Program-made: the position numbers and the translations under genes | Assembly (NCBI RefSeq): GCF_900129555.1 | Contig: NZ_FQWC01000008.1 | Span: forward strand, 124,001 to 188,000 | Source of the DNA: Flavobacterium defluvii | Lineage (GTDB): Bacteria > Bacteroidota > Bacteroidia > Flavobacteriales > Flavobacteriaceae | Reading direction: 5' to 3' | Length of the DNA: 64,000 nucleotides | Notes under the pieces: generated by a model | What the model saw: the letters and a program-made list of their open reading frames with translations, nothing else | Database searches by the model: none | Told to the model about the DNA's origin: nothing | Shown: in pieces, positions 27,003-28,901 of the stretch | Position numbering within the stretch: position 1 is the first letter of the stretch | Layout of the letters: every line of letters begins with the position of its first letter

Positions 27003-27758
27003 ATGAGTAAACTAAATAATAAAGTTGCAATCGTTACAGGAGCTTCAAAAGGAATTGGCGCTTCTATAGCTGTTTTTTTTGCTGCAGAAGGCGCAAAAGT
27101 GGTCGTTAATTATGCATCAAGCAAAGAGGACGCTGATAAAGTTGTAAAAACTATAACAAATAAAGGCGGAACAGCAATTGCGGTACAAGGTGATGTTTCA
27201 AAAAAATCAGATGTAATCAGACTTTTTGAAGAAACAAAAAAAGCATATGGAACATTAGATGTTTTGGTAAACAATGCCGGGATTTATCAGTATTCCCCAA
27301 TTGAAGAATTAACAGAAGAATCTTTTCATTCTCAATTTAATATTAATGTTTTAGGTTCTTTATTTTCTATTCAGGAAGCCTTAAAATTGTTTGATAAAAA
27401 AGGCGGTAACATTATCAATATAAGCTCCGGAGCAAGTAATACGCCACTGCCGACAGGATCTGTATATTCCTCAACAAAAGCAGCTCTTGATGCTATTACA
27501 ATTGCACTTTCAAAAGAATTCAGCGGAAGAAATATTAGAATCAATTCTATTTTACCTGGAGTTGTTGAAACTGAAGGTTCGCATAGTGCAGGATTTATCG
27601 GTAGTGAATTCGAAGCAAAACTAGTTCAAACTACACCACTTGGGCGTACTGGACAGCCTGAAGATATTGCCAAAGTAGCAGTTTTTCTTGCCTCTGAAGA
27701 TGGAGGATGGATAAATGGAGAGAAAATAACTGTATCAGGTGGTATTTATGGTATATAA
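27003..27758 (+). CDS. SDR-family oxidoreductase
   Basis: A 251-residue classical short-chain dehydrogenase: GASKGIGA cofactor motif (about 14-21), NNAG (about 90), the catalytic Ser in NISSGASN, Tyr-x-x-x-Lys in YSSTKAAL (about 153-160) and the C-terminal PEDIAKVAVFLASEDGGWINGE signature (parts IAKVAVFLAS and WINGE). It is NAD(P)-dependent; the substrate is unknown. Control by the divergent HxlR regulator is likely. Confidence 0.9.
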   Translation: MSKLNNKVAIVTGASKGIGASIAVFFAAEGAKVVVNYASSKEDADKVVKTITNKGGTAIAVQGDVSKKSDVIRLFEETKKAYGTLDVLVNNAGIYQYSPIEELTEESFHSQFNINVLGSLFSIQEALKLFDKKGGNIINISSGASNTPLPTGSVYSSTKAALDAITIALSKEFSGRNIRINSILPGVVETEGSHSAGFIGSEFEAKLVQTTPLGRTGQPEDIAKVAVFLASEDGGWINGEKITVSGGIYGI

Positions 27759-27826
27759 TTGTATGAGTATTTTTTAACTTGACAATTTTGTAAATTAAAA
27801 ATAAACAATAGTAATTTTCTAATAAA

Positions 27827-27863
27827 AAAACTCCAAAATCAAGTGATTTTGGAGTTTTTGGAT
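27827..27863 (-). terminator. Terminator copy 1 of the tRNA-linked tandem array
   Basis: ACTCCAAAATCA-CTT-GATTTTGGAGT is followed on the minus strand by a T-run. The same hairpin, with small changes, recurs at about 28201-28236 and 28579-28614, in each case just 3' of a tRNA or tRNA-like sequence. Confidence 0.75.
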
Positions 27864-27866
27864 TTG

Positions 27867-27936
27867 TGGGCGATGAGGGGTTCGAATCCCCGACCACTTC
27901 CGATGGAATCGGAATGCTCTGAACCAGCAGAGCCTA
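27867..27936 (-). pseudogene. tRNA-like sequence 1 (5' acceptor strand missing)
   Basis: Read on the minus strand, it keeps a D-arm (GCTC...GAGC), an anticodon arm (TTCCG/CGGAA, loop ATTCCAT, apparent anticodon UCC), a T-arm and the 3' acceptor strand ATCGCCC plus A. The 5' acceptor strand GGGCGAT is absent and replaced by the end of the GIY-YIG gene, whose TAG stop overlaps the start of the D-arm. An A at the last T-stem position spoils a pair. It cannot form a normal acceptor stem, so I call it a pseudogene. Confidence 0.7.
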
Positions 27937-28185
27937 ACTTTTGCTTTTGATTAATTCTTGTATTTTAATCCGGCTTTTCCAAGATTTGATTTGCAGTTCT
28001 CTATGATGTGCAAGTTCCTTTGTCTCATATTTCTCGGTATATACAACTTTCCAATCACTGACATTTCCTGTAAAACCTTTACTTTTTTGATTATGACGAA
28101 TTAATCTCTCTTCTAAGTTAGAAGTAAACCCGATGTAGAATTTGTTTTTGCTTTCGCTGAATAGAATGTAAACAATGTAATTCAT
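27934..28185 (-). CDS. GIY-YIG nuclease-domain protein, copy A
   Basis: An 83-residue protein that is a single GIY-YIG domain. YIVYILFSESKNKFYIGFT carries the two-Tyr/Ile-Gly signature (YVY... FYIG), with a basic helix (NLEERLIRHN) and GNVSDWKVVYTEKYETKELA downstream; the Glu expected near the end lies in HHRELQIKSW. Homologues include UvrC N-domains, homing endonucleases and the small stand-alone YhbQ/UPF0213 type. It differs from copy B by very few residues. Its stop codon lies within the tRNA-like sequence. Confidence 0.85.
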   Translation of the reverse strand: MNYIVYILFSESKNKFYIGFTSNLEERLIRHNQKSKGFTGNVSDWKVVYTEKYETKELAHHRELQIKSWKSRIKIQELIKSKS

Positions 28186-28200
28186 AAATGTTTAAAAACA

Positions 28201-28236
28201 AAAAACTCCAAAATCAATTGACTTTGGAGTTTTTGG
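28201..28236 (-). terminator. Terminator copy 2 of the tandem array
   Basis: ACTCCAAAGTCA-ATT-GATTTTGGAGT with a T-run on the minus strand, 3' of the second tRNA-like sequence and upstream of GIY-YIG copy A. The stem has one G-T pair. Confidence 0.72.
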
Positions 28237-28243
28237 ATTTTTG

Positions 28244-28313
28244 TGGGCGATGAGGGGTTCGAACCCCCGACCACTTCCGATGGAATCGGAATGCTCTGAA
28301 CCAACTGAGCCTA
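28244..28313 (-). pseudogene. tRNA-like sequence 2 (5' acceptor strand missing)
   Basis: As for copy 1, but the T-stem is intact and the T-arm plus 3' acceptor strand equals that of tRNA-Val. The D-arm is GCTC-AGTTGGTTCA-GAGC and the anticodon loop ATTCCAT reads UCC. The expected GGGCGAT acceptor strand is replaced by the GIY-YIG 3' end (AAAAGTTAG). Whether it is still transcribed or processed from the tRNA-Val transcript is unknown. Confidence 0.7.
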
Positions 28314-28562
28314 ACTTTTGCTTTTGATTAATTCTTGTATTTTAATCCGGCTTTTCCAAGATTTTATTTGCAGTTCTCTTTGATGTGCAAGTTCCTTTGT
28401 CTCGTATTTCTCGGTATATACAACTTTCCAGTCACTGACATTTCCTGTAAAACCTTTACTTTTTTGATTATGACGAATTAATCTCTCTTCTAAGTTAGAA
28501 GTAAACCCGATGTAGAATTTGTTTTTGCTTTCGCTGAATAGAATGTAAACAATGTAATTCAT
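28311..28562 (-). CDS. GIY-YIG nuclease-domain protein, copy B
   Basis: Same 83-residue protein as copy A, with HQRELQ instead of HHRELQ as the visible residue change. It starts 17 bp past the terminator of tRNA-Val and ends inside tRNA-like sequence 2. Both copies are intact, with conserved GIY-YIG Tyr, Gly, Arg and Glu positions. Small GIY-YIG genes next to tRNAs are common in Bacteroidota; the duplication here, with tRNA remnants, is what makes the locus notable. Confidence 0.86.
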   Translation of the reverse strand: MNYIVYILFSESKNKFYIGFTSNLEERLIRHNQKSKGFTGNVSDWKVVYTEKYETKELAHQRELQIKSWKSRIKIQELIKSKS

Positions 28563-28578
28563 AAATGTTTAAAAACAA

Positions 28579-28614
28579 AAAAACTCCAAAATCAAGTGAC
28601 TTTGGAGTTTTTGG
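28579..28614 (-). terminator. Terminator of tRNA-Val (array copy 3)
   Basis: ACTCCAAAGTCA-CTT-GATTTTGGAGT with a T-run on the minus strand, just downstream of the tRNA. Confidence 0.78.
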
Positions 28615-28619
28615 ATTTG

Positions 28620-28694
28620 TGGGCGATGAGGGGTTCGAACCCCCGACCCCCTCGGTGTAAACGAGGTGCTCTGAACCAGCTGAGCTAATCGCCC
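28620..28694 (-). tRNA. tRNA-Val (anticodon UAC)
   Basis: The minus-strand sequence folds as a standard tRNA: acceptor GGGCGAT/ATCGCCC, D-arm GCTC/GAGC, anticodon arm CCTCG-TTTACAC-CGAGG with UAC at positions 34-36, variable loop, T-arm with TTCGAAC, and discriminator A. The 75 bases include the discriminator; CCA is not encoded. U33 and a purine at 37 are present. It heads the GIY-YIG tandem array. Confidence 0.95.
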
Positions 28695-28901
28695 TATTTT
28701 TTTGCTATCATTTCGTGATTGCGAGTGCAAATATACAGCTAGAATTTGGAATTGCAAGTATATTTTAAAAAAAATCAAATATTTTTTTCGGGCTTTTATT
28801 TAGCAACCTATTTTTCAGCTTTTTAAAAAATAAATATTTTTTATTGTTTTCTTATAATTTAGTTAAAAAATAAAATCTGAGTGTGTAATTCTTAATATTC
28901 C

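Follow-up and report, generated by a model that had tools for sequence, protein, structure and literature searches.

Genomic islands integrate at tRNA 3′ ends through tyrosine recombinases, classical homing abolishes the target site in the occupied allele, and RAYT is an HUH tyrosine transposase that mobilises REPINs. According to PMC13096335, which cites Brok-Volchanskaya et al. 2008, SegB, a GIY-YIG homing endonuclease found free-standing in T-even phages, causes tRNA-Tyr and segB to be amplified together in tandem in phage T6, and the authors propose recombination via microhomology between the 3′ end of segB and the 5′ part of the tRNA. This work is a precedent in showing that a homing endonuclease of the GIY-YIG kind, linked to a tRNA, can make tandem tRNA–nuclease arrays. 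Like SegB, the cassette reported here has a GIY-YIG gene tied to tRNA genes and occurs in tandem units of tRNA and nuclease, and the recombination proposed for SegB between nuclease 3′ end and tRNA 5′ part offers a further parallel; unlike SegB in that account, it resides in bacterial chromosomes as one 83-aa domain with isotype-bound lineages, its nuclease has an intact tRNA on one side and a truncated, palindrome-marked copy on the other, and its arrays reach at most seven units in assembled genomes. With tRNA islands it shares insertion into a tRNA gene, a replacement 3′ part and a displaced old 3′ end, but it has no integrase, measures about 370 bp and carries a longer, palindrome-bearing tRNA copy. 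Our preferred reading, to which we assign a probability of about 65%, is that this is a minimal homing-like mobile cassette living in tRNA genes, for which tRNA sequence would serve both as the target of a putative cleavage and as homology arms.

The window, by which we mean the whole analysed stretch of 64,000 nucleotides from Flavobacterium defluvii, holds on its minus strand an intact tRNA-Val(UAC) and a terminator, followed twice over by a GIY-YIG gene, a tRNA-Val copy and a terminator (Table 1). ARAGORN, Pfam and the 377-bp spacing confirm this arrangement, which the earlier note had described as an intact tRNA-Val with two units of about 377 bp. The units are near-identical and repeat with a period of 377 bp; their ORFs differ at 4 of 249 bases, three of the differences being silent. 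The ORF stops do lie in the tRNA-like sequences, as had been claimed, the TAG of each standing at the start of its copy. The ORF of relatives such as L040 and L048 ends in ..GAT TAG CTCAG.., with the stop on tRNA nucleotides 8-10, and compared with this type of junction the window copies have one additional G. Rfam finds in copy 1 a tRNA that lacks its ends (model positions 9-63 of 71; 28.9 bits against a gathering cut-off of 29; E 0.0012) and returns no tRNA match for copy 2 up to E 1; in a whole-genome search the two copies match tRNA-Val at E 2.5e-15 and 5.6e-14. The sequence of the intact tRNA-Val(UAC) itself has 100% matches in many genomes that lack the nuclease gene.

Table 1. Features of the tandem locus, in window coordinates.
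Feature	Position	Strand	Basis
Intact tRNA-Val(UAC), regenerated by insertion	28619..28694	-	ARAGORN (tRNA-Val(TAC), its sole tRNA call within the window); Rfam RF00005, 66.6 bits
Terminator 1, ctccaaag type, in the interval between tRNA and first nuclease gene	28571..28618	-	inverted repeats; terminator comparison
GIY-YIG nuclease gene, unit 1, 83 aa	28311..28562	-	ORF; Pfam match; predicted fold
tRNA-Val copy 1, D-arm to 3′ acceptor, without 5′ acceptor strand; ORF stop at its start	28242..28313	-	Rfam; similarity to tRNA-Val
Palindrome TTCCGATTCCATCGGAA replacing the anticodon arm, copy 1	28275..28291	-	pattern search (C12:152275-152291); family pattern
Terminator 2	28194..28241	-	inverted repeat
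GIY-YIG nuclease gene, unit 2, 83 aa, one amino acid unlike unit 1	27934..28185	-	ORF; Pfam match
tRNA-Val copy 2, likewise D-arm to 3′ acceptor, without 5′ acceptor strand; ORF stop at its start	27865..27936	-	similarity to tRNA-Val
Palindrome TTCCGATTCCATCGGAA replacing the anticodon arm, copy 2	27898..27914	-	pattern search (C12:151898-151914)
Terminator 3, last	27821..27864	-	inverted repeat

Among ORFs of at least 50 aa, the GIY-YIG gene is the only one wholly inside each 377-bp unit, so that the unit contains neither a tyrosine recombinase nor a RAYT (HUH) transposase, and no intron is among the 17 Rfam matches up to E 1 in a scan of positions 27700-28900. All three window terminators are of one type. 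In many relatives the first terminator differs from the last, so that the latter was not simply copied from the tRNA's own, as the earlier note had it, and going by these relatives we judge terminator 1 of the window to be probably cassette-borne.

The comparison of an occupied with an empty tRNA-Val locus reveals where the cassette sits. Occupied L063 and empty L240 agree at 83% over 504 nt upstream and at 91% over 901 nt downstream, where the match begins exactly at the tRNA 3′ end. In L240 the tRNA is followed by the terminator caagaaactccttaag..., whereas in L063 a terminator of the caagaaactccttaag type stands behind the tRNA copy and another one (ctccaaagtc...) lies between tRNA and nuclease gene. 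Because the terminator behind the tRNA in L240 is found behind the copy in L063, the cassette must have gone into the tRNA gene and provided its new 3′ part. The same terminator order recurs in L044, L042, L049 and L064, whose upstream flanks are homologous to those of their empty partners, and in L059 compared with its own, with an additional palindrome in the copies of L042 and L059; in these five pairs the downstream match covers the terminator only. In L067/L199 the empty-site terminator is unlike either occupied-site terminator, and L063/L240 is the only one of the seven pairs to combine long two-sided homology with discordant terminators and a junction located at the tRNA end.

The wider set of 187 distinct tRNA-Val genes comprises 56 occupied rows and 131 empty ones, a ratio that is not a frequency, since loci were gathered for holding the nuclease or the tRNA. 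The occupied rows show ctccaaa first and ctcctta last in 15 cases and the reverse in none, the last terminator being lost to contig ends in 5 of the 56, and at the 131 empty sites ctcctta is the commonest terminator (42, with ctccaaa at 17). The second tRNA-Val of the F. defluvii genome is likewise empty and has a ctcctta terminator. Terminators of tRNA-Arg are mostly of one type at occupied and empty sites alike and do not discriminate. We conclude from these comparisons that the cassette brings a tRNA 3′ part with its terminator and that the host's own end is displaced downstream. The tRNA is regenerated with its 3′ end duplicated, a hallmark of tRNA islands. The paired loci show the cassette inside the tRNA gene, with an intact tRNA in front and the host 3′ end and terminator pushed downstream; the cassette itself consists of a tRNA 3′ part, its own terminator, the 83-aa GIY-YIG gene and a 5′-truncated, palindrome-bearing tRNA copy. 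The earlier note had instead pictured a tail copied into the region behind the tRNA, a view we abandon: the cassette goes into the tRNA gene itself and brings a replacement 3′ part with it. The empty sites that it proposed to look for exist, both in L240 and at the window's own site, which is polymorphic, with 2 occupied and 10 empty loci among the best 12 upstream-flank matches. Presence and absence at one orthologous site are therefore seen for L063/L240 as well as for the window.

Matches at E 1e-20 occur in 44 of the 299 Flavobacterium genomes searched for relatives of the GIY-YIG gene, the rest having none at that threshold. GTDB contigs yielded 79 loci, largely from Flavobacterium, and among the 75 in which the nuclease hit was long enough, 50 have tRNA-Val(UAC) at most 400 nt upstream. 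Related loci elsewhere accompany tRNA-Arg, tRNA-Pro, tRNA-Met, tRNA-Asn and tRNA-Asp, and the F. defluvii genome holds relatives beside tRNA-Met (L003), tRNA-Asn (L004) and tRNA-Asp (L005, broken). Across Bacteroidota, a profile of nine such proteins matches 208 of 395 genomes at E 1e-12, with an upstream tRNA, direct or along an array, in 62 of the 81 loci kept after filtering. The tRNA context thus recurs, and the worry that the units might be unlike the tRNA context of other genomes falls away.

Our unit sample comprised 272 distinct units, 255 of them full-length with at least 60 nt downstream; a tRNA was assigned to 178 of these (138 directly, 40 by chain along the array), and the 77 with no tRNA in reach are near a contig edge (17) or else behind islands, mirrored, or unrelated GIY-YIG genes. 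The upstream tRNA was taken as the nearest ARAGORN call, which in L004 is itself a palindrome-bearing copy. A cognate test covered 173 units, with undefined, Cys, Ser(tga) and Pro(cgg) calls excluded, in 12 classes: Val, Met, Asn, Arg(tct), Arg(acg), Asp, Pro, Ala, Phe, Thr, Ser(gct) and Lys, among which Phe, Lys and Arg(acg) are represented by one unit each. The 230 nt downstream of the nuclease gene matched the cognate isotype best in 156 units and failed to do so in 17; in 156 of the 173, too, the cognate match exceeded 100 shuffles of the same segment. For Val the count was 73/79 once a miscalled tRNA-Cys palindrome copy and the doubtful Ser-tga and Pro-cgg calls had been cleared from the comparison pool, and 21/79 while those three doubtful calls stayed in it. 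Chance, which the earlier note had named as a way for its idea to fail, is excluded as the source of the tRNA similarity by the whole-genome E-values and by this shuffle and cognate test (156/173).

In the protein tree, reduced from 153 to 125 rows by thinning Val proteins at 85% identity, the isotype label changes 25 times, against a minimum of 13 and a shuffled mean of 79.2, and 0 of 200 shuffles gave a value as low. Over the 118 rows with a known host group, isotype requires 25 changes and host family 44 (shuffled means 76.8 and 73.6), the latter figure being presumably somewhat inflated, since one family seems to be present under two labels. The tree is built on just 84 columns, many of its forks are open, and Asp, Val and Asn are each split over several groups. 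On these counts the nuclease lineages track tRNA isotype more than host family. Tandem units are common, with two in the window, three in L015 and L054 and seven in L116, and 18 of the 56 occupied tRNA-Val rows hold at least two nuclease hits. The loci compared here show isotype-bound lineages, presence and absence at orthologous sites, and tandem arrays.

In both window copies the anticodon arm is replaced by TTCCGATTCCATCGGAA, a perfect palindrome, so that the 'tRNA end' which the earlier note had seen as rebuilt is indeed a tRNA copy, but one that carries a palindrome. A count over 168 units (at least 60 bits; undefined and Cys excluded; perfect stems required) found the pattern TCC[CG]-palindrome-GGA within 110 nt downstream of the gene in 130, where shuffles lead one to expect 0.28, and in none of the 168 upstream ARAGORN tRNAs, a tRNA being counted once per unit. 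The stems co-vary on both sides (TCCGAT/ATCGGA, TCCCGAT/ATCGGGA, TCCGCC/GGCGGA, TCCCGAC/GTCGGGA and others). When the segment was anchored behind the D-arm and no perfect stem was required, 58 of 76 Val copies were found; they gave 30 distinct segments, 27 with at least 6 perfect pairs from the first base. The same anchored count gave 8/8 distinct segments for Met (12 of 22 copies found), and it holds for these two isotypes only, the Arg pattern being misplaced on most Arg rows. By eye, in examples, the palindrome occupies the anticodon arm of Val, Arg, Pro, Ala and Lys copies; Met and Asp L005 have it on the 3′ side of that arm, Asp L281 has it in the T-arm, Asn L004 in the variable region and Phe L302 in the D-arm. 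It is present in 6 of 15 Asn copies, 0 of 5 Ser and 0 of 3 Thr. We infer that the palindromes mark the copy as uncuttable. In L039, L042, L059 and L067 the T-arm of the copy contains a second palindrome, TTCCGATGAAAAATCGGAA followed by ACAAGCT, which in reverse complement gives the common anticodon-arm palindrome TTCCGATTTTTCATCGGAA. In L048, L060 and L070 the copies with a palindrome are called tRNA-Glu, tRNA-Lys and tRNA-Cys by ARAGORN, and such miscalls (Lys, Glu, Cys) mean that genome annotations may contain false tRNA genes.

Both window ORFs match Pfam GIY-YIG (E 7.6e-17 and 3.7e-16), and the match to NCBIfam TIGR01453 is below its cut-off. Y17, G19 and E63 are invariant in 57 proteins, with Y6 and R27 conserved in at least 90%, and we take these five residues to be the GIY-YIG motif and catalytic residues. 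The AlphaFold model is a single compact domain with a mean pLDDT of 90.3; in a fold search it came nearest to the UPF0213 protein 1zg2 (E 6e-4), then to Slx1 (E about 0.01-0.07), and only weakly to the I-TevI catalytic domain (E 0.5). A sequence search against solved structures also placed 1zg2 nearest (E 3.6e-11) and found a Slx1 homologue. Pfam, alignment and predicted fold agree on a known homing-nuclease fold with its conserved residues, and sequence and fold alike identify a minimal stand-alone UPF0213-like GIY-YIG domain, the 83-aa chain leaving no space for a separate DNA-binding domain. UPF0213 and other small stand-alone GIY-YIG proteins are thus the nearest solved relatives by sequence and fold, yet the UPF0213 structures are of hypothetical proteins, and two further small GIY-YIG genes of the F. 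defluvii genome (L006, L007), unlike the cassette, have no tRNA called in their loci. The likeness to I-TevI, a Group I intron homing endonuclease, consists of the weak fold match and the sub-cut-off TIGR01453 hit, whereas the cassette differs in having no intron among the Rfam matches, no space for a DNA-binding domain, and a target gene that is regenerated, not spliced.

The nuclease genes are under purifying selection, with a median dN/dS of 0.095 for Val-type genes (597 pairs among 55 distinct sequences, 0.1<dS<1.5), calculated over the first 237 nt. An open-frame hit of at least 75 aa is present in 72 of 85 Val units, and these two results rule out the idea that the gene copies are dead, another ground on which the earlier proposal could have foundered. 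Broken units do exist, as in the Asp-type L005 of the F. defluvii genome with its in-frame TAG.

We propose that the nuclease would cut the empty tRNA gene of its isotype. Repair of the break would use a copy bearing the cassette as template, with the tRNA sequences on either side acting as homology arms, whereby the cassette would be copied in while the tRNA remains functional. Tandem units could then result from further cutting or from slippage between repeats of the tRNA segment, and the palindrome probably deprives the downstream copy of its cut site and renders that copy a dead tRNA. Such a cut-and-repair model would explain the regeneration of the tRNA, the 5′-truncated copy, the isotype lineages and the arrays. 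It leaves unexplained why the intact tRNA of an occupied locus is not cut again, for which low expression or a wider recognition site are possible reasons. The exact window tRNA sequence is present in 49 of the 56 occupied tRNA-Val rows and in 131/131 empty ones (collected using that sequence as query), so that a resistant tRNA allele was not found in those 49 of 56 occupied rows; an occupied allele without the target, as in classical homing, is not what we see, only the downstream copy being altered. Because the occupied allele keeps its presumed target and DNA cleavage is only putative, we do not class the cassette as a homing endonuclease gene, although it may well work like one. The core notion of a homing-like element that targets a tRNA, restores its end and has duplicated in tandem agrees well with the comparative evidence, through the isotype link, presence and absence, the displaced terminator, the intact and selected ORFs and arrays of up to seven units; it is weakened in one point, the occupied tRNA being mostly identical to the empty one (49/56).

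The nuclease might instead act on tRNA itself, as an isotype-specific tRNA-cleaving toxin, defence or control protein for which the palindrome-bearing tRNA-like RNA would be a decoy or regulator, and the association of nuclease lineages with isotypes, the retention of the tRNA-like part in 156 of 173 units and the replacement of the anticodon arm in the Val, Arg and Pro copies shown, with D and T arms left in most, are all compatible with such a role. We nevertheless regard it as unlikely: it would account neither for a cassette that enters the tRNA gene and displaces the native terminator nor for patchy presence at one site and arrays of near-identical units, the palindrome position varies by isotype (by eye, D-arm in Phe L302 and variable region in Asn L004), and the nearest solved folds are those of a UPF0213 protein, Slx1 and, weakly, I-TevI.

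Palindromes of the TCC..GGA type are also dispersed. The pattern CCCGATN{2,8}ATCGGG occurs at 40 sites of the F. defluvii genome, one of them in the tRNA-Asn locus, against 1 site for the reversed pattern, and it is found in 296 of 299 genomes of the genus, with 0 to 112 copies per genome. All 20 dispersed sites examined (L381-L400) hold the 18-bp palindrome TCCCGATAGCTATCGGGA in AT-rich surroundings, several of them inside what appears to be another repeated sequence (ttgcggtt..). This dispersal, together with the second T-arm palindrome of some tRNA copies, could suggest that it is the palindromes which move, mobilised by the GIY-YIG nuclease as REPINs are by RAYT, with tRNA loci as a nursery. 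The cassette does resemble REPIN/RAYT systems in having short dispersed palindromes next to a single nuclease gene, but the nuclease is GIY-YIG, not HUH, and the palindromes lie inside tRNA copies. We think this reading improbable, given that the palindrome-richest genomes, G056 (112), G109 (88) and G202 (84), have no hit at 1e-20 to the Val type, the only type searched there, that the Val palindrome TTCCGAT..ATCGGAA is present at only 4 sites of the F. defluvii genome, 2 of them in the window locus, and that no tRNA-like flank was seen by eye within 30 nt on each side of the 20 dispersed sites. On the last result we also reject the idea that the dispersed palindromes are footprints left by the cassette.

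These tRNA sites seem to serve islands as well: in L078, L091 and L117 foreign DNA separates the unit from the tRNA and ends in a short tRNA 3′ remnant, as after island integration. It is nonetheless very improbable that the units are passive products of islands which, on integrating at tRNA 3′ ends, left partial copies, the GIY-YIG gene being cargo that was then duplicated through ordinary recombination. Against this, the unit holds a single gene in about 370 bp and lacks an integrase, its copy runs from D-arm to acceptor and is longer than usual att cores, and the nuclease type follows the tRNA isotype and is under purifying selection.

Returning to the homing-like cassette, tRNA genes are familiar landing sites of large integrase-driven islands, and a single 83-aa domain appears to do likewise in about 370 bp. 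Similar arrangements across Bacteroidota at about a dozen tRNA kinds point to a widespread, apparently undescribed miniature mobile element, and our search of open-licence papers found no description of tRNA-bound GIY-YIG cassettes in bacteria. We tentatively suggest, as a generalisation that may well prove too broad, a phylum-wide class of one-gene elements at 12 tRNA classes, in which the tRNA would be target, homology arm and restored gene at once, the palindrome would mark the leftover copy as cut-proof, and the same activity may have seeded the scattered palindromes of Bacteroidota. If the cassette reading is true, three questions become testable: how one tRNA gene is recognised by a minimal GIY-YIG domain, how essential genes can be hit harmlessly by a selfish element, and how tandem arrays arise (compare SegB).

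Several loci depart from the order seen in the window. In L318, L321, L333, L334, L336 and L348, at tRNA-Ser(gct) and tRNA-Arg(ccg, cct), the order is mirrored, with a palindrome-interrupted 5′ tRNA fragment, the nuclease and then the intact tRNA. L079, L126, L274, L302 and L328 have an extra leader and tRNA 5′ part with a palindrome upstream of the intact tRNA and no nuclease gene there, and in L041, L069, L075, L078, L091 and L117 unrelated DNA lies immediately upstream of the unit. L325 contains a long series of short tRNA-like palindrome repeats between its GIY-YIG units.
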